A stretch of DNA of 64,000 bases, taken from contig NZ_JAIUIE010000002.1 of the NCBI RefSeq assembly GCF_020165495.1, forward strand, positions 186,001 to 250,000. The letters are read 5' to 3'. Below, piece after piece: positions 44,568 through 61,458 of this stretch. A program made the position numbers and the translations under genes. Source of the DNA: Mesorhizobium sp. BR1-1-16. GTDB taxonomy: Bacteria; Pseudomonadota; Alphaproteobacteria; Rhizobiales; Kaistiaceae. The notes below the pieces were generated by a model. The model did no database searches and was not told where the DNA came from. It saw only the letters and a program-made list of their open reading frames with translations. The stretch's first letter is position 1, and every line of letters starts with the position of its first letter.

Positions 44568-45970
44568 ACGCCAATGTCCGATCGACGGAAGGGAGCGAGC
44601 CGGTTCCGCACGGCCGGCGCCCTTCGCTCGTGCCGGTGCCGGTGCATCGCGCCGTCATTGCAGAGTTTCAATCCGACGCGCTCGAGCTTGAAGAGCGCGA
44701 CCCGCCACGCGTGGCGCGGATCACCCTCTACGGCATCATGGCGCTGCTGGGCTCGACCGCTGTATGGGCCTCGCTCGCGTCAGTCGACGAGGTCGTGGTC
44801 GCGCCGGGCAAGCTCGTCACCACCAAGCCGACCATCATCGTCCAGCCCCTGGAGACCTCGATCATCCGTTCGATCGACGTCGCCGTTGGCGAGACCGTCC
44901 GCGCGGGCCAGACCCTGGCTCGGCTCGACGCGACTTTCAGCCAATCCGACGTCGACCAACTCCAGGCGAAATTCCGGGCGTTCGACGCGCAGGTGAAGCG
45001 GATGGAGGCGGAGATCCGCGACGAGGATTACGGGCTGGAGGCAGGTAGTACGCCCGATGAGCTGTTGCAGGTCGAGCTGTTCGGCCAAAGGCGCGCCTTC
45101 CGGCTCTCGCAGCTGCAGAATTTCGAGCAGCAGATCGCCGGGCAGGCGGCAGATCTTAAGTCGGGCACGGAGCAGGAGGCGATTCTCGTCGTACGGCGCG
45201 ATAACCTGCAGCTCATCGAGACGGCGCGGGACACGCTCTACAAAAAGGAATTCGGCTCGCTGCTCAACCTCCTGAGCTCGCGCGATGCCCGCCTCGATGT
45301 CGACGCGAGCATCGTGGCGCTGCACGGCAAGCGCGAGCAGGGCACCCATCTTCTCGCCAAGCTCAAGGCAGACCGGCAGGCCTTCCTCGACGACTTTCGT
45401 CGCACCACGATGGAGAAGCTGGTCGAGGTCCGCAATCAGCGCGACACGGTCGACGAAGAGCTCAAGAAGATGAAGCTTCGTCGCAACCTCATCGCCTTGA
45501 CCGCGCCGGCCGATGCCGTCGTCCTCGACCTCGCGCAGCGCTCGATCGGTTCGGTGGTGCGCGAGGCGGAGCCGATCGTCACGCTCGTGCCGCTCAATGT
45601 GCCGCTCGAAGCCGAGGTCTCGATCAATGCGCGCGACATTGGCCGCATCGAGACCGGCGATACGGTGCGGGTCAAGTTCGACGCTTATCCTTTCCAGAAA
45701 TATGGGACGGCGGAAGGGACGATTCGCACCATCAGCCGCGACGCCTTTACCCCCAGCCAGCAGGAGGCCGCCATTGGCCAGTCTCCGCTGCCCTATTTCC
45801 GTGCCCGCGTCGCGCTCGCGGACAGCCGGCTTCAGGCGGATGGCGCGCCCGTCTCGCTGCTGCCCGGCATGTCGGTCTCATCCGAGATCAAGGTCGGACG
45901 CCGAACGGTCATGTCCTACTTCCTTTACCCGATCACGCGCGGGCTCGACAGCGCCATTCGCGAGCCCTGA
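44564..45970 (+). CDS. HlyD-family type I secretion membrane fusion protein
   Basis: A 468-aa periplasmic adaptor: one N-terminal membrane helix (I-M-A-L-L-G-S-T-A-V-W-A-S-L near residue 55), a biotinyl-lipoyl-like half (V-V-A-P-G-K-L-V-T-T-K-P), a long coiled coil (130-300), then the beta-barrel with V-E-A-E-V-S-I-N-A-R-D-I-G-like text and the signature R-V-A-L-A-D-S. It bridges the ABC transporter and a TolC-type channel, which is not in the window. The ATGA overlap with the transporter indicates coupled translation. Confidence 0.93.
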   Translation: MNANVRSTEGSEPVPHGRRPSLVPVPVHRAVIAEFQSDALELEERDPPRVARITLYGIMALLGSTAVWASLASVDEVVVAPGKLVTTKPTIIVQPLETSIIRSIDVAVGETVRAGQTLARLDATFSQSDVDQLQAKFRAFDAQVKRMEAEIRDEDYGLEAGSTPDELLQVELFGQRRAFRLSQLQNFEQQIAGQAADLKSGTEQEAILVVRRDNLQLIETARDTLYKKEFGSLLNLLSSRDARLDVDASIVALHGKREQGTHLLAKLKADRQAFLDDFRRTTMEKLVEVRNQRDTVDEELKKMKLRRNLIALTAPADAVVLDLAQRSIGSVVREAEPIVTLVPLNVPLEAEVSINARDIGRIETGDTVRVKFDAYPFQKYGTAEGTIRTISRDAFTPSQQEAAIGQSPLPYFRARVALADSRLQADGAPVSLLPGMSVSSEIKVGRRTVMSYFLYPITRGLDSAIREP

Positions 45971-46297
45971 CCGAGACTTCAGCCAAAAGGGCTAGGTCGA
46001 GAACAACGCGGCTGATGCACAGCATCGCCGCAAGGTCAATTTGGCTGACCAAGGTCAACAGCCGCGCAACGCTTTCCATACAGCGATGCTCTCACGCCGA
46101 AGTCTCGTCCGGCTGCCAAATCCTCCTGCGTCGACGGAAACCGCGTCAGGTGCGGCTTTTCTGAACGGCTGTTGCTTCTCGGCCTGCACCCGTGGCCTGG
46201 GCGCTATGCGCCTTCTGGCCGATCGCGGCTGAACCTCCTGGAACGGCGAGGTTGGGCCGGTTGCAGCATACACCCGCCGATTGCTGCGCCGCGAGGC

Positions 46298-46322
46298 GAC
46301 TGTACAGTCATCCAGTATAAAT
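46298..46322 (+). promoter_or_regulatory. Palindrome with downstream -10-like element
   Basis: GACTGTACAGTC at 46298-46309 is a perfect 12-bp palindrome; TATAAAT follows at 46316-46322. There is no clear -35, so an activator bound to the palindrome would be needed. It would drive the small frame at 46374 or an RNA. Confidence 0.35.
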
Positions 46323-46373
46323 AGGCTGTGATCTCAGCCATATGCCGTTGACTAGAGAATCGGTTGGACTTCG

Positions 46374-46532
46374 ATGGATAAGAATATTATGCTGCACCGC
46401 ACTATCGATGTCGCAGGGCATCATTTTATGCGTCGAAGGCCAGAGATGCGCGATTTAACCATGATGGTGGGCGCGATAAGGCCTTCGGATGTGGCTGATA
46501 TGAGTAGTTCATTTGGTGGAAGAGGGGAATAA
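46374..46532 (+). CDS. Possible 52-aa small protein
   Basis: An ATG-to-TAA frame of 52 codons, methionine- and arginine-rich (M-D-K-N-I-M-L-H-R-T-I-D, later R-R-R-P-E-M-R-D-L-T-M-M). It begins about 45 bp downstream of a -10-like TATAAAT. There is no convincing Shine-Dalgarno, and I recognise no family, so it may be chance. Confidence 0.2.
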   Translation: MDKNIMLHRTIDVAGHHFMRRRPEMRDLTMMVGAIRPSDVADMSSSFGGRGE

Positions 46533-46566
46533 GCCTCATGTCGGTGCATCTCTACCGCGATCGAGG

Positions 46567-46598
46567 TTGATAGATTTGTGGAACTGCTATAAGTTCCA
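46567..46598 (+). promoter_or_regulatory. Promoter with overlapping palindrome for the LuxR-type gene
   Basis: TTGATA (46567-46572), a 15-bp spacer and TATAAG (46588-46593) preceded by TG, i.e. an extended -10. The -10 lies within a perfect TGGAACT-N6-AGTTCCA palindrome (46579-46598), so a bound protein would block RNA polymerase. The gene starts about 110 bp downstream. Autoregulation is a fair guess. Confidence 0.5.
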
Positions 46599-46706
46599 TT
46601 TTGTTAAGCTTTCGAACTCGTCCCCTACCGACGGCATTTTTCGGACGAGGAGCAGAGGCCACTGGGCAGGGAATTATTCGACACACTAACAATCGGGTAT
46701 GTCAAA

Positions 46707-47486
46707 ATGTTGATGAACAGGGATAAGTCCGTTCCACATAAAATGAACCTGATTGAAGCACTGCCGGTAGACGCTATCGATAGTGGTAGAAATGAGGATG
46801 ATCTGTCAGAAAATTCTTATACAAAGGACAGTATCTCCATTATCGATGAGAATGCGTTTGCGCGGGATTGTCTGGCGCGGTGCCTTTGCGATATCGAACG
46901 CGACTGCGCCATCCTGACATTCGCCGATGTGGATGAATGGCAGCGGTTTGATCGAGGCGTAGGGGGATCCATCGTACTACTTTGTGCGGTGGGAGCGACG
47001 GCAACTGAGAATGTGCTTCATCGCGATCTGGCAAGGATGAAGATGATCGATCCGCTGGCTCGGTTCATCATCATGTCGGACAGCGAAAATCCGGATCAGA
47101 TGCTGGATGCGATCGAGCATGGTGCCAGCGGATATATTCCGAGCAGCATCAATCTCGATGTGGCCGTCAAGGCTATCAGGCTGGTTCGTGCCGGCGGGGT
47201 GTTCATTCCGGCCAGTGCGCTGCTGAAGAGCCGTTCGGCCGCTGATCAGGTGGCCTCGCGCAAGGAAGGCGAGCGCTCGCTCTTCACGGCGCGGCAGGCG
47301 GAGGTCGTCAAGGCGCTGCGTCGCGGCCAGCCGAACAAGCTGATCGCCTATGAGCTCAATATGGGGGAATGCACCGTCAAGGTTCACATCCGCAACATCA
47401 TGAAGAAGCTCAACGCCCGAAACCGGACCGAAGTGGCCTTCATGACCAACGGCATGTTCCTTCCGGAAGGGGACTCACCGCGCTAG
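46707..47486 (+). CDS. LuxR-family regulator with degenerate receiver domain
   Basis: A 259-aa protein: about 40 variable residues, a receiver-like domain (42-165) and a C-terminal LuxR helix-turn-helix (195-250: T-A-R-Q-A-E-V-V-K-A-L-R-R-G-Q-P-N-K-L-I, then C-T-V-K-V-H-I-R-N-I-M-K-K-L). The acidic pair is kept (Asp48, Glu49), but the phospho-acceptor position is Cys93 (I-V-L-L-C-A-V-G) and the conserved Lys after G-Y is missing, so it should not be switched by phosphorylation. It stands between the secretion and polysaccharide loci and could control either. Confidence 0.9.
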   Translation: MLMNRDKSVPHKMNLIEALPVDAIDSGRNEDDLSENSYTKDSISIIDENAFARDCLARCLCDIERDCAILTFADVDEWQRFDRGVGGSIVLLCAVGATATENVLHRDLARMKMIDPLARFIIMSDSENPDQMLDAIEHGASGYIPSSINLDVAVKAIRLVRAGGVFIPASALLKSRSAADQVASRKEGERSLFTARQAEVVKALRRGQPNKLIAYELNMGECTVKVHIRNIMKKLNARNRTEVAFMTNGMFLPEGDSPR

Positions 47487-47767
47487 GCTGACAAAGGGTC
47501 GCGACGGGGATGCGGGCCCCTGCCGCGGCCGCTGGATCATCTTGCTGAGGCTTTCGGGGAAGCCTCGATGGTCCATAGGCGATCACGCATCGACAGATTC
47601 AGCCTGTGCCGGGTCGTAACCGGATTTCGCCAGGCAATGGCGGCACGACGCTGGCTGCCTGGCAGTCTGGCGCGCGGGCGGCCCACCTCATCCGGGCAAA
47701 GGCCGCGCTGATCGCTGCCACCGGCATGCCGCCGGCGCGATTCTATGCTGGGTTTTGCGTTCGTTCG

Positions 47768-48769
47768 CTATAGAAGCGAAGCGATGCCGTCTGCGGGCTG
47801 CGGCGCGCCGCGATAGACGATCTCGGCGGCCTTGAGGCTGCCAGCCTGCAGGCGAATGATCGGCTCCGGACCGAGGCGGTTGAGCAGGATGCCCATATGC
47901 CCTCGGCCGGGTTCAGTCAGGGGCCAGAGGCGGAGGCCGGCTGATCGTGCGGCGGAGCGGTCGATATCGCCCCAGAACTGGGCCAGCAGAGCGCCAGGCG
48001 CGCGGCGGGCAATCATATCGAGGGATGCCCGCCCAAGGGGCCGCTCGCGCGGCGTCAGGGACAGGAGCACGGCATCCCAGGCGCCCTCCCGCATCGGCGT
48101 GATATCATCGAACAGCTCGGCCGTGGCGCCGGCCTCCTGAAGTCCCTCGATCAGAAAGTCGGCGAAGGGATTGTCGCAGAGCACGGCAACGCGCTTGTCG
48201 GCGACGTTCAGGTCGCCATCGCGCAGCAGGCGCACGCAAAGCGGCCCCAAGAACGGGAACACGGCGACGTCGGGGTGACGCTCGTTGACTGCGGCGATGC
48301 GGATCCCGCGGTCGCGGCAGGCCTGCAGATCGAAATCGGTCCCACGAAACTCCCACGCCTCGAACATCAGGGCGATCACCGCCTCATGCGGCAGAAACCT
48401 GATGATGTCGCGAGTGATCGGGCGAAGGCGGCCCGAATTGGTGAGAATGCTGCAGCTGTTCAAAGCTGCCGTCGAAATCCCGATGGAGAAGGATATCCGC
48501 GCTTCGACGCCGGCGATCCGGGCCAGCCTGCGCGTTGCCTCGATCGCGTCGCGGGCGCTGCCGTGATGAACGGTATCGCGCGCGCAGGCATGCACCTCCG
48601 CGCCGGCGATCGCTGCGATCACGGCGGTGGAGGCATAGGCGCCCGTCGCCGCCTCGGTGACGACTTGAAGCTTCGAGAGGTCGAGCTGCAGGATGTCGAT
48701 GCGGCGCCTCATGCTGTGCAGCATCTCGTCCTCGAGGCCGGGATTGGTTTCCGCGGGTTCCAGCGTCAT
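47768..48769 (-). CDS. Unknown 333-aa protein of the nucleotide-sugar operon, Rossmann-like
   Basis: I do not recognise this family. Two alternating beta-alpha halves are visible: the first around [18 protein letters not shown], the second beginning [15 protein letters not shown] near residue 195, which reads like a nucleotide-binding beta-alpha start though without G-x-G-x-x-G. A conserved-looking [12 protein letters not shown] stands between them. It overlaps the upstream aminotransferase by an ATGA and ends the operon, so a role in making or transferring the amino-sugar is likely. No signal or membrane helix is seen. Confidence 0.75.
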
Positions 48770-49941
48770 GAGGATTGGGTCGCCAGGACACGGGAGCGGG
48801 CGGATTTCTGAACCGCATCGGCGAGCGTCTCGATGACCTTCAACTGCTCCTCATTCGTGAGCTGAGGATAGAGCGGCAGGATGATCGACTGGTCGCGGGC
48901 GATTTCCGACCGGCGCAGCGAATGCGGTGTCGGCAGATCGGCATAGGCGTCTTCCATGTGCACGCACATGATGCCGCGGCGCGTGGAAATGCCTTCGTCG
49001 AGCATCGCCTGCATGATCGCGCGTTGATCCAGCCATGGCGCCAGCATCACGCAGTAACTCTGCCAGTTGGACATAGCCCAGTCCGGCTCGTGCGGCGCGA
49101 TGAGGCCATCGATACGCGCGATCGCCGCGGTGTAGATTTCGGCTTTCCGCCGCCGTGCGGCGATGATCTGTGGCAGTCGTTTCAGCTGTTCGCGCCCGAC
49201 GGCTGCCTGGATATCCGTCATCCGGTAGTTGAAGCCGCGAACCGGATAGCTCTCGAAGACGACCTTGCGGCTGTCATGGCGCACCGTGTCGGAAACCGAC
49301 ATGCCATGCTGGCGCCAAAGGCGGAAAAGCGCGTCCCATTTCGGATTGCGGGTCGTCAGCATGCCGCCATCGCCGACGGTTAGCACCTTGCGGGGATGAA
49401 AGGAGAAGCAGACGATATCGCCTTGCGGCGCGCCGATCGGCTGCCAGTCGGCTCCGACGCGGATCTGCGATCCGATCGCGCAGGCGGCATCCTCGATGAC
49501 GGGGAGCCCGTGCGCGCGGGCGACGCGCATGATGGAGCGCATGTCGCATGGCATGCCCATCTGATGCACGCAGAGGATTGCCTTGGTGCGCGCGGTGATC
49601 GCTCGCGCGATCAGCTTCGGATCCATGTTGAAGCCGTCGGGTCCGATATCGACGAAGACGGGCGTCGCGCCGCATTGCCGGATGGCGTTGGCGGTCGCGA
49701 TGAAGGTGTGGCTGACGGTGACGACCTCGTCGCCTTCGCCGATTTCGAGCGCCAGCAGCGCGAGATGGAGGGCGACGGTGCAGTTGGACACGGCGCAGGC
49801 ATGCTCGACGCCGACAAGCGCCGCGAATTCCGCCTCGAAGGCGGCCACCTGCGGCCCTTGCGTCAGCCAGCCGGAAAGGATGGTCCGGCTGGCCGCGTCG
49901 GCTTCCTCCTGGCCGAGCAGGGGTTTTGCGATCGGGATCAC
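48766..49941 (-). CDS. DegT/DnrJ/EryC1/StrS aminotransferase (sugar aminotransferase)
   Basis: A 391-aa PLP enzyme of the sugar aminotransferase family. The PLP-binding Lys185 is in [14 protein letters not shown] at 151-154 supplies the pyridine-contacting Asp. The start is a GTG at 49941, 8 nt after GGAG, overlapping the stop of the epimerase gene (GTGA). It transfers an amino group to a keto-sugar nucleotide. Its sequence differs clearly from the WbpE-like enzyme two genes upstream, so the operon may place two amino groups or act on two sugars. Confidence 0.92.
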
Positions 49942-50930
49942 GATGCCATCTCCTCGAGCTTCTGGGCCTGCATCTCGCTGCGCCACCAGGCGACGAGATC
50001 GGCGATCCCTTCCTGCTTGTCGACGAGCGTGCGGAAACCGAGCGCCGCTTCCGCCGCGGTGGTCGAGGCGAGCCGGCGCGGCACGGGATTGATCGCGCGC
50101 GCTTCCTGGTGGACCGGCTGCAGGGCCGGCCGCCCCATGGCGACGGCGAAGATCCGGGCGAGCTCAAGAAGCGAGGTTTCGGTGCCCGATCCGACATTGA
50201 ACACCGCGTCGGTGGCAGGCGCACAGGCAGCCAGGATGTTGGCGCGCGCCACGTCGGTGACGTGGATCATGTCCATCGTCTGCAGGCCATCGCCGAAGAT
50301 CAGCGGCGGCTCGCCGGCTTCGATGCGCTCCATCCAGCGGACCATGACTTCGGTATAGCGTCCGTGAATATCCATGCGTGGGCCGTAGACGTTGAAATAG
50401 CGGAGCGCGACATAGTCGAGCCCGTACATATCGTTGAACGAGCGCAGCAGGCCCTCTCCGAAAGACTTGGCAGCGCCATAGAGCGTCCTGTTCGCGTAAG
50501 GATGATCGCTCTCCGTGGTCGGGAAATGCTCCGCCATGCCATAGATCGATGCCGACGAGGCCATGACGACCTTGCGAACCTTCAGATCGGTGCAGAGGCG
50601 CAGCAGCTGGTAGGTGGCATCGACCATGACCTGCATCGCCTGGTCCGGTTCGGCAGCGCAATGCGTGATCCTGAGCGCCGCCTGATGAAACACCGTATCG
50701 GTGTTGGCGACGAGCTCGCGCATCAGCCCGGTATCGCGGATATCACCTTCGATGACCGCGACCCGGCCGGATTCGAGGGCGCCGGCGAGATTGGCCATCC
50801 GCCCGCGCACCATATTGTCGACGACGACGATCTCGCGGCAGCCTGCGGCCACCAGTTGATCGACGATGTGAGACCCGACGAAGCCGGCACCGCCGGTCAC
50901 CAGGACACGCGCCCCGTTCAGCATGTTCAC
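49938..50930 (-). CDS. NAD-dependent sugar epimerase/dehydratase
   Basis: A 330-aa extended [17 protein letters not shown] binds [11 protein letters not shown] and Y-G-A-A-K give the catalytic Ser, Tyr and Lys, and R-Y-F-N-V-Y-G-P-R is the substrate-side signature. Start is a GTG at 50930 with GGAG six bases before it. UDP-sugar 4-epimerase or 4,6-dehydratase activity is possible; the text after the Tyr motif looks more like a GalE/WbpP-type epimerase. Confidence 0.92.
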
Positions 50931-50948
50931 GAGTGTCTCCTCAAGCGT

Positions 50949-52064
50949 TCAGGCGGTTCGGACGAGGTCCTGCATCGTCGCCTCGTTGACGACATCGATG
51001 ATGAAGGCGACCTGGTCGTCCGTGAGTTCGGGAAAGAGAGGCAGCGACAGCGATTGAAGGGCCAGCGCTTCCGAGACCGGGAAGTCGCCGGCGTGATAGC
51101 CAAGCTGCGCATAGGCCGGCTGGAGATGAACCGGCACCGGATAGTGGATGCCCGTCGCTATGCCGGCATCGCCGAGCGCAGCCTTGAGATCGGCGCGATC
51201 CGCGGTCCGGACGGCATAGACGTGGCAGGCGTGGTCGAGGCCGATTGGCCCGGCGGGAAGGCCGAGCGGGCCGCGAAGTCCGTCGTGATAGAGGTTGGCG
51301 ACGCGCCGGCGCTGGCTGTTCCAACGGTCGAGATGGGGCAGCTTCACATCGAGCACTGCGCCCTGGATCGAGTCCATCCGGAAGTTGAAGCCGTGGCGGA
51401 CATGGTTGTACTTGCCCTCCTGGCCCCAATCGCGCAGCGAGCGGATGACGGCCGCGAAGTCGTCGCGACTGGTGGTCACGATGCCGCCCTCACCACACGC
51501 GCCGAGATTCTTGCCGGGATAGAAGCTGAAGCAGCCGATATCGCCGAAGGCGCCGGCGCGCGTGCCATCGCGTTCGGCGCCATGGGCTTGCGCGGCATCC
51601 TCGATCACCAGCAGGCCGAGAAGGCGGGCGATGGCGCAGATCGACGCCATGTCGGCCAGCCGTCCATGCAGATGGACGGGCATGATCGCCTTGGTCCGGC
51701 TGGTCACCTTGTCGGCGATGAGTTCGGGCGCCATCGTCCAGGTGACCGGATCGATATCGACATAGACAGGTGTCGCACCCGTATAGACGATGGCAGCCGT
51801 CGTCGCGACGAAGGTGGCCGGCACCGTGATCACTTCGTCGCCCGGCCCGATGCCGGCGGCGAGAAGGGCCAGATGCAGCGCCGATGTGCCGGAATTGACC
51901 GCGACGGCATGGTCCGTACCGCAATAGGCGGCGAAGTTGTCCTCGAAGCGCTCGACGCGCTCCCCGAGGACGAAGTTGCCGTCGCGCATGGCCGCGATCA
52001 CGGCGGCCTCGAGCTCCGGACCGATCGAGGCATATTGCGCGCGAAGGTCGAGAAAGGGGATCAT
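50949..52064 (-). CDS. DegT-family sugar aminotransferase, WbpE-like
   Basis: A 371-aa sugar aminotransferase. The N-terminus M-I-P-F-L-D-L-R-A-Q, Lys185 in F-S-F-Y-P-G-K-N-L-G and the C-terminal I-A-T-G-I-H-Y-P-V-P match WbpE/WlbC, which makes the 3-amino group of UDP-GlcNAc3NA-type sugars from the keto product of WbpB. The upstream oxidoreductase (WbpB-like) and acetyltransferase (WbpD-like) complete that chemistry. ATG at 52064 overlaps the upstream stop. Confidence 0.92.
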   Translation of the reverse strand: MIPFLDLRAQYASIGPELEAAVIAAMRDGNFVLGERVERFEDNFAAYCGTDHAVAVNSGTSALHLALLAAGIGPGDEVITVPATFVATTAAIVYTGATPVYVDIDPVTWTMAPELIADKVTSRTKAIMPVHLHGRLADMASICAIARLLGLLVIEDAAQAHGAERDGTRAGAFGDIGCFSFYPGKNLGACGEGGIVTTSRDDFAAVIRSLRDWGQEGKYNHVRHGFNFRMDSIQGAVLDVKLPHLDRWNSQRRRVANLYHDGLRGPLGLPAGPIGLDHACHVYAVRTADRADLKAALGDAGIATGIHYPVPVHLQPAYAQLGYHAGDFPVSEALALQSLSLPLFPELTDDQVAFIIDVVNEATMQDLVRTA

Positions 52065-53089
52065 GATGCACGCCTCAGGTCGACAAGTTCCATCGGTTGG
52101 CCGCGCAGTGCGGCCGAGCGGGTGGCCGCAGCCAGCATCTCGACGACGCGCAATCCGCTTTCGCCGTCGGAGGGCGGCCGGCCCTTGCCTTCGATGCTGT
52201 GAACGAATTGCTCGATCTCGGTGACGAGCGCTTCCTTGGTCGAGATCGCCGGGGCCCACATCTCGCCCATGCGATAGGAGACGCGTCTTTCGTGGACGTT
52301 CTCGAGGTTCTCGGCGAGGTCCACGCCGCGATCATAGACTTTGATCTTCTCGCTATTCTGCATGTCGTCATAGATGATCATGCGCTGCCGGCCGCTGATC
52401 AGCGTCTGGCGGATTTTCACCGGCGACATCCAGTTGACGTTGAGATGCGCCATGGCGCCGTCGTCGAAATAGATGGAGAGGTGGGCCATCGTTTCGGGGC
52501 TGTCGGGCAGGAAGGCCGCGGCGCTGGCCGAAATCGCGACGGGGCGAGCATCGATGAGAAAATCGAGGATCGCGAAGTCGTGAACCGCAAGATCCCAGAT
52601 GACGCTGACGTCTTTCTGGAGCAGGCCAAGGTTGACCCGCGTCGCGTCATAGCAATAGACATCACCGATCGAACCATCCGTGATCAGATCTTTGATCTTC
52701 CGCACGGCACCGGTGTAGATGAACGTGTGATCGACCATCAGGGTGAGCGAGCGGCGTGCCGCCTCCTCGACCAGCAGCGCCGCCTTGAAGACATTGTCGG
52801 TGATCGGCTTTTCGACGAGGACATGCTTTCCGGCGCGGAGCGCGGCGAGGGCCATGTCGAAATGCGTGCTCACCGGCGTCGAGATGACGACGGCGTCGAT
52901 CGACGGATCCGCGACGAGATCGCGCCAATCGGTCACAAGCCGTGCCGAAGGATGGCGGCGGCCGGCGCGCTCGAGCGCAGCCGGTGAGAAGTCGGCGATC
53001 GCGCAAAGGGCGGCAGCGTCGACTTCGGCGATCGCCCGGGCGAGGTTCGGCCCCCAATAGCCGTATCCGATCAGACCTATGCCTGGCAT
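52061..53089 (-). CDS. Gfo/Idh/MocA family oxidoreductase, WbpB-like
   Basis: A 342-aa NAD-dependent oxidoreductase: G-I-G-L-I-G-Y-G-Y-W-G-P-N binds the dinucleotide, G-K-H-V-L-V-E-K-P near residue 95 is the family signature, and D-L-A-V-H-D-F near 165 supplies the catalytic region. In the WbpB/WbpD/WbpE pathway this step oxidises the 3-hydroxyl of a UDP-sugar to a ketone. The ATG at 53089 has AGGTG upstream and overlaps the end of the acetyltransferase gene by 13 bp. Confidence 0.92.
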   Translation of the reverse strand: MPGIGLIGYGYWGPNLARAIAEVDAAALCAIADFSPAALERAGRRHPSARLVTDWRDLVADPSIDAVVISTPVSTHFDMALAALRAGKHVLVEKPITDNVFKAALLVEEAARRSLTLMVDHTFIYTGAVRKIKDLITDGSIGDVYCYDATRVNLGLLQKDVSVIWDLAVHDFAILDFLIDARPVAISASAAAFLPDSPETMAHLSIYFDDGAMAHLNVNWMSPVKIRQTLISGRQRMIIYDDMQNSEKIKVYDRGVDLAENLENVHERRVSYRMGEMWAPAISTKEALVTEIEQFVHSIEGKGRPPSDGESGLRVVEMLAAATRSAALRGQPMELVDLRRAS

Positions 53090-53634
53090 GGTTCGTTCAC
53101 CTCGGCTCCAGAATGTCCGCCATTCGTGTTTCGCAAACTGTTGGGATGCGGCGCTTCCGGTCGTCCGAACCGCACGTCGCCGATGACGCGCGCAGGCACG
53201 CCGGCGACGATCGCGAAGTCCGGAACATCCCGCGTGACCACCGCCCCCGCGCCGACCAGGGCCTGGGCGCCGATGGTGACGCCGCAGACGATGGTCGAAT
53301 TCGAGCCGAGCGAGGCGCCGCATTTCACCAGGGTCGGTGTGCACTCCCAGTCGCCATCGCGCTGCAGCGAGCCGTCCTCGTTGGTCGAGCGCGGATAGAG
53401 GCCATTGGTGAACATGACGCCATGCGCCACCATCACCTCGTCCTCGATCGTGACACCCTCACAGATGAAGGAATGCGACGAGATCTTGCAGCGCCGACCG
53501 ATGGTGCTGCCCTTCTGGATTTCGACGAAAGGTCCGACCCGTGATCCAGCGCCGATCTGGCAGCCATAGATATTGACGAGATCCGGATAAGAAATAACGA
53601 CGTCGTCTGCGATGATGCTTGAATTGATCGGCAT
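53077..53634 (-). CDS. Hexapeptide-repeat acyltransferase, WbpD-like
   Basis: A 185-aa left-handed beta-helix protein built of I-G-x-x-x-x-like hexapeptides (C-Q-I-G-A-G-S-R-V-G-P-F-V-E-I-Q-K-G). It shares M-F-T-N-x-x-Y-P-R-S and G-A-S-L-G-S-N-S-T-I-V-C-G-V-T-I-G with WbpD/WlbB N-acetyltransferases, which acetylate the 3-amino group formed by WbpE. It is first in the operon. Two ATGs are possible: 53634, which aligns with the family, and 53685. Confidence 0.9.
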   Translation of the reverse strand: MPINSSIIADDVVISYPDLVNIYGCQIGAGSRVGPFVEIQKGSTIGRRCKISSHSFICEGVTIEDEVMVAHGVMFTNGLYPRSTNEDGSLQRDGDWECTPTLVKCGASLGSNSTIVCGVTIGAQALVGAGAVVTRDVPDFAIVAGVPARVIGDVRFGRPEAPHPNSLRNTNGGHSGAEVNEPCQA

Positions 53635-53959
53635 CGTTGAGCGGCCCTCGGATCGTGAGATGTTGTTGCCGTTGCTATCGAACATCTTTCAAATAGCCGG
53701 TTTCCGGAGCCCTGAAACCCGACCAAAACGGGCATTGCCCGATGGGGCGCCGTCTACTTCCTATGGTGGATCGAGGGCTTCCCGGCGCCATCCATCCGGC
53801 GAAGGGAGTATGGTCCGGGAACAAGGCAACGCCAACGAGCCGCCCCAGCAATGGGCTGACGGGGCCCCGACGGCCGAATGACGGATGCATGGGACTTCGA
53901 TGTTGTGTGCTGTGCGTCCGATGGGTAGTCCGCCGGGCCACGGCGGAGCCCTGACGCGA
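53635..53959. other. Gap between beta-helix protein gene and amino-sugar operon
   Basis: 325 bp with no supportable gene. It holds the 3' end of the beta-helix gene transcript with a terminator at 53725-53741 and, beyond it, only about 90 bp in which the promoter of the amino-sugar operon must lie. Confidence 0.55.
53725..53741 (-). terminator. Rho-independent terminator-like hairpin with T tract
   Basis: On the minus strand: CGGGC-AAT-GCCCG followed directly by TTTT. Stem 5 bp, short but with the proper T run. It would separate the polymerase/beta-helix transcript from the amino-sugar operon. Confidence 0.5.
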
Positions 53960-56128
53960 CTATGGCGTCGGTGCCGGCGAGGCAGCGGCTGCAGGCGCCG
54001 GCAGGATGATGCTGTCTTCGTCGATGCCGGCGCGCTGCAGGTCGGCGAGGCTGCCGAATTGGCCTGACGACATGACATCCGGCTGATACTGGAAGCTGCG
54101 GTCGTTCAGATTGCCGCTGTAGCGATTGCGCGCAAAATGGACATAGCCGGCGCCGTGGCCAGGCGCATAGGCCGAGGCGGCGAGGCCGTTCTCGGCGGTG
54201 ACGGCGACGCTGTTATCTTCGATGCGGTTCGGCTCGGCCCAGTCCGGATGCCAGTCGCGGCCCGTTCCGTCGTCAATCCGGAAGGCCGAACCGGCGCCGC
54301 CGAGGATATTGTTGCCACGGACCACGTTGCTCCAGCCGCCATTGATGCCGATGGCCGATACATTCTGGGCAAGGGTATTGTCCTCGATCAGGACGCCGCT
54401 GGCCTTGCCATCGAGATAGATCGCCCAACTGATGGGGGTCGGCCATTCGCTGGTATTCTCGTAATGCGCCGGCCAAAATGTTCCGTCCGCCCGGTTCATC
54501 AGCTGGTCGGTTCCGGTGATCCGGTTGCGGCGGATGATGCTGTCGAGCGAGTCGGCCTGCATGCCCATCAGTTTGATGGCGCCGCCATCCGCCGTCTGCT
54601 GATTGGCCCGGCGCAGTTCGTTGTCTTCGATGACGGCGTCGTGGACACTGTCGTCGGCCCCCCAGATCGAGCCGCCGGCTATGCCGAACTGCGCCATATC
54701 CTCGATCAGGTTATGCGCGATCCTGATCGTGTCAGCCGCCTGGAAGAACACGCCGGCGCTCTCGAAATACACCGTCCCGATGTTGTGGATGCGGTTGGCA
54801 AGAACCCGCGCGCCGATCGATTTGCCGAACTTGCCGTATTCGGTGCCGATATAGATGCCGTTGCCCGCGACATCGCCAATCTCGTTCCCCGCGATCAGAA
54901 CGTCGGCGCTCTCGGAGACATGGATGCCGACGCCAACATCGGCGATCACATTGTTGACCAGCGCGACGCCGTCGGCCTGTTCCAGCCTGATCGCGCCGAA
55001 GCCGCGCGTATCGGTGCCGAACTTGCCGCTGCCGAGCGGCGCGCCGTCGCGAAGCGTCAGGCCGGCGATCAGCATTCCATCGGCCTCCTGCAGCCGGAAG
55101 AAGGTCGGCAGCGTGCCGGCAACGACGCTGGCGTTCGCAAATGACGGATCATCGTCAAGATAGTCGAGCCTCCCAGCGGCGGCATCGAACCACCATTCGC
55201 CGGAGGCATCGAGAAAGGCCTCGGCCCCGGCGAGAAAATAGCGGCTCCCTTCGGCGGTGAAGAAATAGCTCGTCCCTTCCGTATGCACGGTATCGGTCGC
55301 GGCATCGATGGAGGTGACTGGCAGCGTGTCGCTGCCCCACTGGCTGCCCGGGCTGAACCCGCCGACGATATGGGCGACGACCCCGCTCGGATCTGCGATT
55401 TTTGGCAGGTCGCCGGGGTGAAATCGAAACGAGGTGTTTCCCTGCCAGGCATCGGCGGTCGGCTTGGCCGCGAACAGCCAGCCCTTGCGCGGATCTCCAT
55501 CGACCGGTGCGTTGGGATAGCGCGCGAGCGGACGGGCCACGCCGTTGACGAACAGCGACAGGATGCGGCTGTCCCGCTTGGCGGGCGGCAGCGTGGCCGT
55601 CCAGCGGCCGGGGGCCGTCTCCGTCCATCCCGCGACGAGCGGCCCGCCATGCAGAACCGGTGTCTCGCCGCAGGCCGCGACGAGCGCGAGACCCTTGTCC
55701 TTGGCGTCGAAAAGGATGGGCGCCGTCAGATAATAGTCGCCGCCGCCAACCACGATCCTTCCTGGAACGACCGCCGCGCGCACAGCATCGCGTGCAGCCT
55801 CGATGCTGGCAAAGGGCCCGTCGCTTCGCGTGTCGTTCGGCTTCGCGAGACGGCCGCTCCAATCATCCTGGCCTGCCGGCGAGACATGAAACACGACGTC
55901 TTGTGGTGGCGATGCGGATCCCTCGGTTCTGGACGGCAGCCGGCCGGCCTCGGGACCGCATGGCCAGGCCTTGCCGAATTCGGACGCGAGCTCGGGCGGA
56001 AACGACCGGCCGGGTGCCACCATCTGCGACGGCGCGGCGTCGTCGCCCGCCGTCTCGGCCGAAGCACCCGGAAGCCAGGCGCACAGCAGAACGCCGGCAA
56101 GTGCCGCGGCGGCGGGAACGCGGCTCAT
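53960..56128 (-). CDS. Exported right-handed parallel beta-helix protein
   Basis: A 722-aa protein with a signal peptide cleaved after A-S-A near residue 24. Residues 78-110 (F-H-V-S-P-A-G-Q-D-D-W-S-G, then F-A-S-I-E-A-A-R-D-A-V-R) are the usual entry of DUF1565/GH141-like proteins; residues 360-620 are pectate-lyase-type coils with many N-x-I and G-I-x-I repeats (G-N-E-I-G-D-V-A-G-N-G-I-Y-I-G). It probably cleaves or modifies a polysaccharide in the periplasm or outside, perhaps the polymer made by this locus. It overlaps the polymerase gene by ATGA, so the two are made together. Confidence 0.85.
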   Translation of the reverse strand: MSRVPAAAALAGVLLCAWLPGASAETAGDDAAPSQMVAPGRSFPPELASEFGKAWPCGPEAGRLPSRTEGSASPPQDVVFHVSPAGQDDWSGRLAKPNDTRSDGPFASIEAARDAVRAAVVPGRIVVGGGDYYLTAPILFDAKDKGLALVAACGETPVLHGGPLVAGWTETAPGRWTATLPPAKRDSRILSLFVNGVARPLARYPNAPVDGDPRKGWLFAAKPTADAWQGNTSFRFHPGDLPKIADPSGVVAHIVGGFSPGSQWGSDTLPVTSIDAATDTVHTEGTSYFFTAEGSRYFLAGAEAFLDASGEWWFDAAAGRLDYLDDDPSFANASVVAGTLPTFFRLQEADGMLIAGLTLRDGAPLGSGKFGTDTRGFGAIRLEQADGVALVNNVIADVGVGIHVSESADVLIAGNEIGDVAGNGIYIGTEYGKFGKSIGARVLANRIHNIGTVYFESAGVFFQAADTIRIAHNLIEDMAQFGIAGGSIWGADDSVHDAVIEDNELRRANQQTADGGAIKLMGMQADSLDSIIRRNRITGTDQLMNRADGTFWPAHYENTSEWPTPISWAIYLDGKASGVLIEDNTLAQNVSAIGINGGWSNVVRGNNILGGAGSAFRIDDGTGRDWHPDWAEPNRIEDNSVAVTAENGLAASAYAPGHGAGYVHFARNRYSGNLNDRSFQYQPDVMSSGQFGSLADLQRAGIDEDSIILPAPAAAASPAPTP

Positions 56129-57465
56129 GGGTTTTTCTCGTCGAGGTCGATGGCAGGGGGCGGCGTGGTCGAGGACACACGTTCTGGCGTTGGCCGGACG
56201 ACCTGGTCCGTGCGGACAGGGGCATAATAGGAGAACATGATGATCGCGACCGCGAACATCGTGGCGATGCAGTCATTCTGGTTGAGGAACAGGCTCTCCG
56301 TCAGGTTCATCACGAGAACCATGATCAGGAACACGTTGAGCCACAGCCAGCCCTCTTGAGGCGCCCGGCATTGCAGAACGGCGCCCTGGTGGATGGCGCG
56401 GATCACGACGCCGGCGAATAGCACGATGCCGCCGACGCCGAAGCTGAGCAGGATATCGCGATAGCCGTTATGCGCATGCGGAGGCGTCCAGCCCACCTTG
56501 GCCCAGATTGTCCAGGCGAGCGGATTGGCCTCTGTCCAAAACGACTGGAAGCCGAAGCCGAGCAACAGATGCCGGCTGATCTCGACATCGACCAGTTCCC
56601 AGAGCGGCACCCGGCCCGTCAAGGTCGCGTCCTTTCCCAGCGCCACGAGGAGGGGTACCAGGAATTCGTGCAGCACGACCAGGATCAGCGCCGCCACCTG
56701 GATCGTGACCAGTACGAAAACGACCCGCGTGACGCCGCGTACCTTCGGCAGCGCGGAATAGATCACATAGACGCACGCCGCCGACGTCGTCGCGATGATC
56801 GCTGTCATCGAAGTCGACCCGGCGAGGCAGGCAAGGCCCGCGAACAGCAGGAAAAGCGCCGTTCTTCGGAAACCCATCGACCCATCGATCGCGACCACGG
56901 CGGAAACCAGCACCAGGATGCTGGCATACCAGCCGAGCGTGTTCTTGTTGAGGAAGACCCCGCGGATCGAGCCGTCGAGGGGCATGCGTGCGTAGCGCGG
57001 GGAAACAACGACGATGCCGAGGCTCGCCACGATGCAGATGCCGAGCGAGATCATCATCAGCAGCAGAAGCTGGCGCGGCGTGAACCGGATTGCCAGCAGA
57101 TAAGCGAGGAGGATGCTGAACAGCAGCCCGATCGCGCGCCGCAGCGTCGTCGACGGGCTGACGGACCAGACCACGGAAACAAGCGGCAGCAGTGTCAACA
57201 GCTGGAGCGGCACGTTGCGCGCGAGCGCGATCAGGAATGGCCGCACATTCTGTGACAGGATCAGGAGCGTGAATGCATAGACCGGCAGCGACAACAGACG
57301 CAGCTTCGCCTTGCCGGCATCGCTGAGCTCGCCTTCCGGCCCCGCCATCAGCAACGGAAAGAACGCGCCCGTCTGCAGCAGCAGGCACACGCCCGCGCCC
57401 CATAGCTCTATGGTTCGCCAGCGTAGCGTCAGCCTGCCATCCGCCCGTTCGGTCATCGATGTCAT
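56125..57465 (-). CDS. O-antigen ligase/polymerase family membrane protein (Wzy/ExoQ-like)
   Basis: A 446-aa protein with about eleven hydrophobic segments and a large periplasmic loop near residues 290-345. The Wzy_C segment includes L-G-F-G-F-Q-S-F-W and P-P-H-A-H-N-G-Y-R-D-I-L-L-S-F-G, the conserved histidine-containing loop of this family. It would polymerise lipid-linked repeat units (ExoQ role). GAGG lies 8 nt before the ATG at 57465; another ATG is at 57456. Transcribed away from the ExoF-like gene. Confidence 0.9.
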   Translation of the reverse strand: MTSMTERADGRLTLRWRTIELWGAGVCLLLQTGAFFPLLMAGPEGELSDAGKAKLRLLSLPVYAFTLLILSQNVRPFLIALARNVPLQLLTLLPLVSVVWSVSPSTTLRRAIGLLFSILLAYLLAIRFTPRQLLLLMMISLGICIVASLGIVVVSPRYARMPLDGSIRGVFLNKNTLGWYASILVLVSAVVAIDGSMGFRRTALFLLFAGLACLAGSTSMTAIIATTSAACVYVIYSALPKVRGVTRVVFVLVTIQVAALILVVLHEFLVPLLVALGKDATLTGRVPLWELVDVEISRHLLLGFGFQSFWTEANPLAWTIWAKVGWTPPHAHNGYRDILLSFGVGGIVLFAGVVIRAIHQGAVLQCRAPQEGWLWLNVFLIMVLVMNLTESLFLNQNDCIATMFAVAIIMFSYYAPVRTDQVVRPTPERVSSTTPPPAIDLDEKNP

Positions 57466-57903
57466 CGAGAGGACCTCGGTCTGCAGCGTCGCGGCACTGC
57501 GTTCATCCTGCGGCACATGCGGAGATATCCTCGGTCATCCGTAGTCGGACCGCCTTTCTGGCGACGGCACACAGCATCGTCCGTGGTGGCGGCGAGCGAA
57601 ACGGAGCCAATCGAATCCGGGGCCGGCGCCAAAGGACGAGGGGCGGACGCCGAAAGCATTAGCCGCGAGCGACATTCGGCTGCGCCGTTTCACGAAGCTG
57701 ATGACGATGGACGATGGTCGGGTCGGCGGCATGCGCCATATGCCCAACTGCGGCCGGCCCCGCATCTCCGCTAGTCTTTTCCTGTGGCCGCCGAATGTCG
57801 GAGGCCGCCTCAAAGCGTCCTGACACCCGCCGCTGGCGTGCCGCGAGGCCTGGCCCGACCGGTGCCTTTGGCTGAAGGACGATCTCGAGGGCGAGAGAAC
57901 CCG
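57466..57903. other. Divergent promoter region of the polysaccharide locus
   Basis: 438 bp between the polymerase gene (leftward) and the export gene (rightward). No supportable gene and no clear promoter hexamers or palindrome; it must contain the promoters of both halves of the locus. Confidence 0.5.
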
Positions 57904-59115
57904 ATGATGCGCATTTGCCTTCCGATCCGGCGCCGGTTCGATTTTCGAGCTGTTCTTTTCGCCGCCCTCGCGCTTCTGGCGAGCATGTCGCCATGCTTCG
58001 CCGAGCTGCTGATCGAGCCGGGCGATACCGTTCACGTTTCCGTTGCCGACGCCTCGCGGTTCGATGGCGACCGCAGGGTGGATGTCGACGGCCGGATCAT
58101 GATGCCCCAGCTCGGCGGCATTGACCTCAAGGGGCTGCGGCTCGACGAGGCCGGCGCACGCATCGCTGGCGAACTCATCAGGCGCGACATTCTGAAGGCG
58201 CCGAATGTCCTGGTCGAAGTCGTGAAATATCGCCCTGTTTATGTCGGCGGCAAGGTTCGGCGGCCCGGTGCGATCGACTTCGAGCCCGGCATGACCGTGC
58301 GCCACGCTCTCATTCTGGCGGGTGGCGCCGGCAAGGAGCAGGAAGAGAATGCCACTTCGGTCGATATCCCCGAGCTCAGGGCGAAATGGCAGACGACATC
58401 CTATCAGCTCCTGCAGGTGAACAGCCGCATCGCCCGCCTCGACGCCGAACTGGTCAGACGCGATACGGCGGCGCCGACCGCGGCACCGGGCGCCGTGCTG
58501 CCGCAAGACCGGCAGGCGCTCGTCGCGCTGGACAGCGATATTCTGAAGGACCGCCTCGAGACATGGACGGCGAACCAAGTTCACTTGCGCGATGCGCTCG
58601 CGCTCTACGATCTAGAGATCGACGTTCTGAACCAGCAGTCCACCCTGCAGGAGGGTGAGCGCAATCTGACTGGCCAGCAGGTCGAGACGGCCAGGGCGCT
58701 GGTCGAAAAAGGCCTCATGCCGTTGCCGCGCCTGCAGGAGCTGGAGCATGTGCAGTCACAGGCTTCGCAGGATATCCTGGAGAACCAGGCCTTCACGGCT
58801 CGAGCGCGGCAGAGCCGGGCGACCATCGCGCATCAGTTGAAGACGGCCGATATCGACTGGCGGATGGAGATCAGCCAGCAGAAGCGCGAGGCGATGATCG
58901 ATCGCGCCCGGCTCAAGGCCGAACTGGAGGCGCTTTCGAGTCAGATCCTCAATGCCGGCGACGACCTCTCCGAGGCGACGGATCGCCAGTTTCAGACCGT
59001 CGTCGAGATCTATCGCTCCGTCGCGGGGCAAAAGAAGCCGGTCGCCGCGACGATGGATACAGAAATCATGCCCGGCGACATCCTCGACGTGTCCTTTGCG
59101 AAGGGCGCGGGCTGA
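57904..59115 (+). CDS. Polysaccharide biosynthesis/export protein, ExoF-like
   Basis: A 403-aa protein with a signal peptide (R-R-R-F-D-F-R-A-V-L-F then hydrophobic core, cleavage after C-F-A near 33; no lipobox). The Poly_export domain follows (L-L-I-E-P-G-D-T-V-H-V-S-V), then an SLBB part (V-Y-V-G-G-K-V-R-R-P-G-A) and about 180 residues of coiled coil, closing with D-T-E-I-M-P-G-D-I-L-D-V. Rhizobial ExoF has this same layout and is a Wza-related export protein. The two adjacent ATGs (57904, 57907) are equally plausible. Confidence 0.9.
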   Translation: MMRICLPIRRRFDFRAVLFAALALLASMSPCFAELLIEPGDTVHVSVADASRFDGDRRVDVDGRIMMPQLGGIDLKGLRLDEAGARIAGELIRRDILKAPNVLVEVVKYRPVYVGGKVRRPGAIDFEPGMTVRHALILAGGAGKEQEENATSVDIPELRAKWQTTSYQLLQVNSRIARLDAELVRRDTAAPTAAPGAVLPQDRQALVALDSDILKDRLETWTANQVHLRDALALYDLEIDVLNQQSTLQEGERNLTGQQVETARALVEKGLMPLPRLQELEHVQSQASQDILENQAFTARARQSRATIAHQLKTADIDWRMEISQQKREAMIDRARLKAELEALSSQILNAGDDLSEATDRQFQTVVEIYRSVAGQKKPVAATMDTEIMPGDILDVSFAKGAG

Positions 59116-59194
59116 TGGCGATCTTCCATCACGCCCCGGCGCTCCGGACGCACGCCGAAGATCGCGACTTCGCCATATCAGCGGAGGCGGGGCG

Positions 59195-60304
59195 ATGAAG
59201 GTGCTGATGCTGGTCTCGGAACTCGAGGACTACACGATCGCCTTCGTGAACGGCGTCGCGCAGCACCTGCCCGTGGTTCTCGGCGTTCCCAAGCGCCGCT
59301 ACGCTCATCTCGCGCCGTGGTTCGATCCGGCCGTCGATCTGAGGCTGCTCGACTGGCCACGGCATCGCTCGCCGGCCAATCCGCTCTTTCTCCTGAAATT
59401 ATCACAGCTTATCCGGCAAGAAGCGCCGACGCTGATTCATCTGCTCAGCAACTCGACGCTGTGGCTCAACCTTGCCGCGCCCTTCTGGCGGCCGATCCCG
59501 CTGGTGACGACGGTCCACGACGTTGACTTGCATCCGGGCGACGCGGACAGCCGCACCCTGCCGCGATGGGCGACCGAGCTGATGGTCCGCCAGTCAGGCC
59601 ACATCGTCGTGCATGGCGAAGGTCTCCGGAAGATGGTGCTGGAGCGCTACGCTAAGCCTGCCGATCACGTGCATGTGCTGTCGCATCCGAGCATCCAGCG
59701 CTATGCCGACTTTGCGCGCAGCAGCCAACTGGCCCGACCCTCGGGTGACGAGGCCTTTCGTGTCCTCCTGTTCGGACGCATCTTCGCTTATAAGGGCCTC
59801 GAGCATCTGATCCGCGCCGAAGCGGCGCTCGGCGATGCGGTGCCGAACCTCCGTGTGACGATTGCTGGCCGCGGCGACGATCCCTGGGCGTTTCGCGCCC
59901 TGATGGGCCGCCCGGATCGCTACGACATCCGCAACCATTTCATCGACGATGCCGAGGTGGCGCAGCTTTTCACCGACACGGACATCGTCGTGCTGCCCTA
60001 TACCGAGGCCTCGCAGAGCGGGGTCCTCAATCTCGCCGCTGCCTTCGGCAAGCCGGTCGTCGTGACCGATGTCGGCGAACTTCGCGCCAGCGTGACGCCG
60101 AACCGGCTCGGGCTCGTCGTACCCCCCGGTGATCCGCAGCAACTCGCCGATGCCATCGGACAGCTGGCAGGGAACTCGCAGCTTCGAGCCGAACTCGGGG
60201 CGAGCGCGCTCGCCTGGGCGTATGGCCCGAACGCGCCGAAGGCGGTTGGCGCCGCGGCGGTGTCGCTCTATCGCAAGGTGGTCGAAGAATGCGCGCCGAG
60301 CTGA
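59195..60304 (+). CDS. GT4-family glycosyltransferase
   Basis: A 369-aa GT-B glycosyltransferase. The C-terminal half has L-L-F-G-R-I-F-A-Y-K-G-L-E-H-L, I-A-G-R-G-D-D-P, D-T-D-I-V-V-L-P-Y-T-E-A-S-Q-S-G-V, the E-A-S-Q-S-G-V being the nucleotide-sugar-binding E-x7-E variant of GT4. GGAGG precedes the ATG at 59195. No membrane helix is seen. It adds one sugar to the lipid-linked repeat unit. The next glycosyltransferase overlaps by 16 bp. Confidence 0.92.
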   Translation: MKVLMLVSELEDYTIAFVNGVAQHLPVVLGVPKRRYAHLAPWFDPAVDLRLLDWPRHRSPANPLFLLKLSQLIRQEAPTLIHLLSNSTLWLNLAAPFWRPIPLVTTVHDVDLHPGDADSRTLPRWATELMVRQSGHIVVHGEGLRKMVLERYAKPADHVHVLSHPSIQRYADFARSSQLARPSGDEAFRVLLFGRIFAYKGLEHLIRAEAALGDAVPNLRVTIAGRGDDPWAFRALMGRPDRYDIRNHFIDDAEVAQLFTDTDIVVLPYTEASQSGVLNLAAAFGKPVVVTDVGELRASVTPNRLGLVVPPGDPQQLADAIGQLAGNSQLRAELGASALAWAYGPNAPKAVGAAAVSLYRKVVEECAPS

Positions 60305-61458
60305 ACAACGTCTCCGAGGCGGCAAGCCCGCACGGCGCCGCCATTCCCTCCGGCGTCGACGGCAAACTGGCTGGCGCGCACGCGCTCTCCGTTCGTCACT
60401 ATGTTGCCGGCGGCCGGGAGCATGGCGGTGGCATCGGACGCATGGCTGGCTATATCATCGACAGCGCCGGCGCTGACGGGATCACGCATGTCGTGACCGA
60501 TACGCGGGGGACCCGGTGGTTTCCGCCGACCTCGCTGCCGCGCCTGGCATTTGCGATTCTGCTGATGGCCCGCGACCGTGTCTTGTCGCCCAAGCGGGTG
60601 CATCACATCCATGTGGCGGGCCGTGGCAGCACGACGCGCAAGCGTATCCTCGCGACAGCCGCGCGTTCGCTGGGATGTATTCATCTCGTCCATCTGCACG
60701 ACTATGACTATGCCGCCGATTTCGAGGCCCGCCCGCCGGCGCGTCAGGCCTCGATCCGGCCGATGTTCACGGAGGCGGATCACGTCGTGGCACTCGGCCA
60801 GCGCGATCGCGAGACGCTGACGCGCTTGATCGGCGTCGATCAGCGCCTTGTCTCGGTTCTTCCCAATTGCGTGCCCGATCCTGGCGAACCGACGCTTCGC
60901 GATAGCGACGAGCCAAACATCGTGTTTCTCGGGCGGCTCAGCGAACGCAAGGGCGTGCCGGAACTGCTCCGGGCCTTGAGTCATCCCGCGATGATGCAGC
61001 TCCGATGGCACGCCGTTCTCGCCGGCGATGGACCCGTCGACGCATACAGGCGGGAGGCGGCGGCGCTCGGTCTCGCAGACCGGGTTCAGATGCCCGGCTG
61101 GCTCGGCCCGGACGAGACACGGACGCTTTGCGCGCGGGCCGATATTCTCACGCTGCCCTCACACGCCGAAGGCCTGGCCATGGCGGTCGTCGAGGGGTTG
61201 GCGCATGGCCTCGCGATCGTCACGACGCGGGTCGGTGCGCATGAGGAAGTCATCGTCGACGGCAGTTCAGGACTTTTCGTTCCGCCGGGCGATGTCGAGG
61301 CTCTGGCGAATGCTCTCGCCCGTCTCGTCCGTGAACCAGACACGCGGCGCGCGCTCCAGGCCCGCGCGCGCGCCACCTATCTCGCCCAATTCAGCATGAC
61401 GTCCTACCGCCGGTCTCTGGAGCGAATCTATGAAACTGTCATTAATGGATACAGGTAA
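60289..61458 (+). CDS. GT4-family glycosyltransferase
   Basis: A 389-aa GT-B enzyme: H-Y-V-A-G-G-R-E-H-G-G-G-I-G near the N-terminus (glycine-rich donor/acceptor loop), F-L-G-R-L-S-E-R-K-G-V-P-E-L-L, L-P-S-H-A-E-G-L-A-M-A-V-V-E-G-L-A-H-G with the E-x7-E catalytic pair, and G-L-F-V-P-P-G-D. It starts inside the previous gene and its end overlaps the following one by 29 bp, so the three are translationally linked. Sugar and linkage unknown. Confidence 0.93.
   Translation: MRAELNNVSEAASPHGAAIPSGVDGKLAGAHALSVRHYVAGGREHGGGIGRMAGYIIDSAGADGITHVVTDTRGTRWFPPTSLPRLAFAILLMARDRVLSPKRVHHIHVAGRGSTTRKRILATAARSLGCIHLVHLHDYDYAADFEARPPARQASIRPMFTEADHVVALGQRDRETLTRLIGVDQRLVSVLPNCVPDPGEPTLRDSDEPNIVFLGRLSERKGVPELLRALSHPAMMQLRWHAVLAGDGPVDAYRREAAALGLADRVQMPGWLGPDETRTLCARADILTLPSHAEGLAMAVVEGLAHGLAIVTTRVGAHEEVIVDGSSGLFVPPGDVEALANALARLVREPDTRRALQARARATYLAQFSMTSYRRSLERIYETVINGYR

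Follow-up and report, generated by a model that had tools for sequence, protein, structure and literature searches.

Probable promoter and leader of a LuxR-type regulator gene with a predicted aspartate-less receiver, beside a Kaistia polysaccharide cluster

The window, a stretch of 64,000 nucleotides at positions 186001-250000 of contig C12 in a genome of 5.2 Mb (G000), carries a gene for a LuxR-family regulator, preceded by an AT-rich stretch of 417 bases (46290-46706) and bordering a set of polysaccharide genes. The features of the locus are, in order of position:

46298-46309, no strand: palindrome GACTGTACAGTC, judged to be due to chance; one exact copy in the genome, lost in the sister species
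46374-46532, plus strand: 52-codon frame, considered non-coding; 19/20/19 substitutions at the three codon positions, early stop in K. soli
46530-46540, plus strand: conserved upstream element TAAGCCTCATG (TAAKCCTMAWG), a possible activator or operator site; present in 4/4 ortholog loci
46567-46572, plus strand: -35 hexamer TTGATA of the proposed regulator promoter; TTGAT in 4/4 orthologs
46579-46598, no strand: inverted repeat TGGAACT-N6-AGTTCCA over the -10, judged to be due to chance or lineage-specific
46590-46595, plus strand: proposed -10 hexamer TAAGTT, spacer of 17 bases; identical in 4/4 orthologs
46602-46706, plus strand: predicted 5' leader of the regulator mRNA, ~105 nt, its start placed from the -10
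46707-47486, plus strand: NarL-type LuxR-family regulator with a predicted aspartate-less receiver; GerE PF00196 at 4.4e-17, NarL profile at 1.5e-23
47768-63673, no strand given: part of the polysaccharide cluster bordered by the regulator, recognized by family matches of the encoded proteins

On the 5' side, the segment 35074-45970 encodes a 1909-residue protein with cadherin-like, Ig-like and DUF4082 domains, lying 5' of a type I secretion ABC transporter and an HlyD adaptor, from which it is separated by a CobW-type gene and a small frame. It is likely to be a secreted surface protein. On the 3' side and convergent with the regulator, the gene of a protein without family assignment is followed by those of two DegT aminotransferases, an epimerase and a hexapeptide transferase; beyond these lie genes for export, polymer and glycosyltransferase functions, among them those of O-antigen ligase-like and Poly_export proteins. 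The first gene of the series (47768-48769, minus strand) encodes a 333-residue protein that lacks a match in Pfam at E 0.01 and in NCBIfam at E 0.001, and is kept in 3/3 ortholog loci with 64-89% identity. The protein at 61430-63673, which we call Wzc-like, has Pfam matches below the cut-off only; a relative with 48% identity has a Wzz domain.

Orthologs of the regulator were sought in 14 genomes of the genus Kaistia (E 1e-60 or better) and found in four: the window's own, Kaistia soli DSM 19436 (G001, NZ_FQUP01000001.1), which is the closest at 91% identity and is the sister referred to below, G006 (72%) and G013 (71%), the last two identities each covering about 220 residues. The four loci fall into two pairs of close relatives and therefore represent roughly two independent lineages. 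The first four genes 3' of the regulator adjoin its ortholog in all three relatives, at 64-91% identity. The 5' neighbour varies, being the secretion operon in two loci and a LacI-family gene in the other two; within the stretches fetched, the type I secretion pair occurs in 1/3 relatives, and the 1909-residue protein lies beside the ortholog in the sister only.

The stretch 46290-46706 was first singled out for its AT-richness, and this is borne out. Its GC content is 48.7%, versus 64.6% for the whole window, only 0.45% of all 417-base windows fall below it, and the most AT-rich part of the window includes it. The lowest 417-base window (45.6%) starts at 46442. All 417-base windows no more than 2 GC points from the stretch start between 46259 and 46723, so that the AT-rich part extends into the regulator gene. 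The 420 bases 5' of the regulator have a GC content of 47-49% in 4/4 ortholog loci. The stretch has the appearance of a normal regulatory region for a gene of the LuxR type. The two palindromes, the TATAAAT, the TTGATA and the small frame (52 codons) that the sequence-only reading had described are also present where it placed them.

Conservation is concentrated close to the regulator. Measured in 50-base blocks, identity to the sister is 34-54% over 46000-46349, 54-76% over 46350-46549 and 84-94% over 46550-46749. In the distant pair the upstream sequence has mostly diverged outside TTGAT-N18-TAAGTT, which spans 46567-46595. TTGAT lies at -140, -141, -142 and -140 from the chosen ATG across the four orthologs and TAAGTT at -117 to -119, distances that depend on start codons picked by us for G006 and G013 from homology and the preceding sequence; in G013 the frame is open further 5', with alternative possible starts. 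Identical block pairs comparable to this one turned up in 3/3000 shuffles of the G006 upstream region. Upstream of the hexamers, the element TAAGCCTCATG precedes the -35 by 37-38 bases in 4/4 orthologs (38 in G013, which also carries TAAGCCT overlapping it). Both patterns were defined after the alignment had been seen; in the 15 sequences scanned (490,024 bases, both strands), TTGAT-N18-TAAGTT occurs four times, always at this locus, and TAAKCCTMAWG likewise once per ortholog locus here and nowhere else. TTGAT-N18-TAAGTT is present in a single copy in its own genome and was accordingly rejected as a regulon motif.

The sequence-only reading had proposed a promoter near 46600 with an extended -10, TGCTATAAG. 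A promoter there is supported by conservation in all four ortholog loci; the hexamer that is conserved is TAAGTT and not the extended -10. The match to consensus is 5/6 for TTGATA and 3/6 for TAAGTT, and a consensus scan listed neither of the proposed -10 elements. The promoter is supported because it is conserved, not because of its consensus score. The leader predicted to follow it shares 84-94% identity with the K. soli locus, measured in 50-base blocks, and has diverged in the other two orthologs; its fold shows no excess stability over shuffles (z -0.80). A second promoter may lie upstream, at the TATAAAT of 46316-46322, as this heptamer is retained in the sister. A search up to 500 bases from the start did not find it in G006 or G013, and no -35 is visible for it.

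The alternative that fares best, although we regard it as unlikely, makes the repeat over the -10 a genuine operator, through which the bound regulator would repress the promoter of its own gene. Dimeric binding is common among LuxR-type proteins; the repeat is perfect, has 7-base arms, overlaps the -10 and retains its inner 14 bases, AACTGCTATAAGTT, unchanged in the sister. However, the outer arms no longer pair in the sister, although its GerE domain is identical to that of the window's regulator, and the repeat is absent in the G006 and G013 loci. Its only exact match in the genome is the site itself; with up to 2 mismatches there are 15 places, versus 27 for a reversed control pattern. The palindrome at 46298-46309 shows a similar lack of constraint: it too has a single exact match, and it is lost in the sister, though CAGTATAAAT just after it is retained. 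Repeats of this kind are common. Across the window there are 47 perfect palindromes of 12 bases, along with 123 inverted repeats whose arms have 7 bases and whose spacers have 0-10; both kinds occur together in 13.1% of 6359 windows of 417 bases. Among 500 shuffles of the stretch, a 12-base palindrome was present in 9.6% and a repeat with 7-base arms in 21.8%. The palindromes are therefore no more than chance would give, and both look like chance features of an AT-rich upstream region. A genome-wide search of the kind suggested by the sequence-only reading yields one exact copy of each, and conservation, one of the two points on which that reading had staked its proposal, fails in the sister. 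As regulon markers, both were discarded on these grounds.

Somewhat less likely still is a small RNA at 46324-46640, perhaps ending at a stem at 46578-46599 with a T-rich tail. The RNA folds better than shuffles (z -2.87, with 1/100 shuffles as stable), the stem is listed as a terminator-like site (one of five in 45500-47500, where shuffles average 1.6), and the TATAAAT ahead of it is retained in the sister. Yet the homologous RNA of the sister is no more stable than shuffled sequence (z -0.18), the stem at the -10 is broken there, and among 61 genomes searched 46290-46706 matched only its own genome and the sister. Rfam gave nothing above gathering on the stretch; a lax threshold returned one match, at E 4.8, far below gathering. 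The suggestion of a small RNA was dropped, as its fold is not common to the sister. Elsewhere in the window, at 1872-1978 on the minus strand, the Rhizobiales small RNA Atu_At1 (RF02496) is matched with 100.9 bits.

A small protein encoded by 46374-46532, also suggested by the sequence-only reading, is the least credible proposal and can practically be dismissed: the frame has an ATG and 52 codons and its opening codons look similar in the sister, but its substitutions are spread evenly over codon positions, the sister frame has a different C-terminal part and then an early stop, and there is no Pfam match. For comparison, the regulator gene gives 20/10/73 by codon position, and the HlyD gene on the 5' side 67/17/8, where the excess falls in the first column because the start used is out of frame. 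Of the 11 frames of at least 30 codons that overlap the stretch, none has a regulator-like excess at third positions when compared with the sister.

The gene that the promoter would serve encodes a protein with a GerE match, and a profile of 15 homologues compared with solved structures finds NarL over both domains. In an AlphaFold model (mean pLDDT 75.9, pTM 0.53, residues 1-38 unreliable), strands and helices alternate in a receiver-like manner, and a helical output domain comes after them. The model's best fold matches are response regulators of the LuxR type in full length; their overall rmsd is poor, since the arrangement of the domains is different or uncertain. Entries for receiver domains among the 50 matches listed align at 2.4-3.4 angstrom. 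The predicted architecture is thus a receiver fold and a GerE domain, as in the NarL/FixJ family. In our reading of the profile alignment, C93 occupies the position of the NarL phospho-accepting aspartate and S146 that of the conserved lysine; in the model, C93 sits at the end of strand 88-94. Neither the aspartate nor the lysine is present in any of the 15 aligned homologues. The aspartate position holds Cys in the four orthologs, Arg in four paralogues and Ser in the seven others, and the lysine position holds Ser or Thr in 15/15. With its predicted receiver fold and another residue at the phosphorylation position, the regulator has the make-up of an aspartate-less receiver protein and, lacking both residues, probably acts without a histidine kinase.

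The Arg paralogue lies at 260183-260809 of the same contig, and the Cys regulator at 232707-233483 (G000:C12). The two genes are 25.2-26.7 kb apart and point inward in 4/4 genomes, and polysaccharide genes adjoin both of them in 4/4; in the three relatives (G001, G006, G013) the interval was covered at its ends. The inner side of the paralogue carries genes for an epimerase and a bacterial sugar transferase in G000 and G001; in G013 and G006 it carries glycosyltransferases together with a chain-length gene. The other Kaistia homologue loci fetched repeat the association: 7/7 lie near a relative of the window's Wzc-like and/or Poly_export protein, each of the two being found in 6/7. A literature search on Kaistia with exopolysaccharide and LuxR found no reports.

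Upstream of homologous regulators, the loci L038-L044 carry 2-5 copies of GGTTGY or RCAACC within 180 bases 5' of the chosen starts (7/7 loci), with a pair near -105 and -74 in L038, L040 and L042. These copies may be binding sites.

Taken together, 46290-46706 probably provides promoter and leader for the gene of the LuxR/NarL-type regulator (46707-47486), and we consider the course of events proposed below to be probable along with it. RNA polymerase most likely initiates near 46602 from TTGATA-N17-TAAGTT, and the resulting regulator mRNA would carry a leader of ~105 nt. The element at 46530-46540 is probably bound by an activator or by the regulator itself; for binding of the regulator to its own promoter, it is the best candidate site on sequence grounds, better than the palindromes. 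The regulator would act without phosphorylation, as its missing residues suggest, and would control the adjoining polysaccharide cluster, as linkage suggests. Autoregulation and control of the cluster by the regulator are both plausible. A more ambitious scheme, in which the paralogous Cys and Arg aspartate-less regulators bracket the polysaccharide locus and control it jointly without histidine kinases, the Cys one possibly sensing redox and feeding back on its own promoter through 46530-46540, is unlikely.

Overall, this is probably an ordinary promoter, and its neighbourhood is of mild interest. The sequence-only reading had in all probability found a promoter, while its palindromes, extended -10 and small frame do not hold up: the eye-catching palindromes are most likely noise, and a better-defined element is indicated in their place. 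The locus also draws attention to a Kaistia regulator family, seemingly independent of histidine kinases, beside polysaccharide genes.

Several known systems offer a comparison. Housekeeping promoters of the sigma-70 type resemble the proposed one in its candidate -35 and -10 hexamers, 17-base spacer, AT-rich surroundings and predicted leader of ~105 nt; the proposed promoter differs in its weak -10, where TAAGTT has three of the six consensus bases. VpsT and CsgD are LuxR-type biofilm regulators, with which the Kaistia protein shares the LuxR-type output; its connection to surface polymers is by linkage only, and its similarity to the two lies below family cut-offs or at the level of fold only. 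The NarL/FixJ response regulators (NarL, StyR, FixJ, LiaR, VraR) likewise have a receiver fold followed by a GerE/LuxR DNA-binding domain, but their phospho-accepting aspartate and pocket lysine are both replaced throughout the homologues aligned here. Comparable in this respect are the aspartate-less receiver (ALR) domains of Maule et al. 2015 (PMC4395418), where Cys, Arg and Ser are among the substitutions named for the aspartate and HTH-luxR is among the domain labels of the Cys-ALR figure. The Kaistia proteins share Cys, Arg or Ser at this position with the ALR domains and differ at the pocket lysine, which according to a figure legend of that paper generally remains conserved in ALRs and is here replaced as well, by Ser or Thr.
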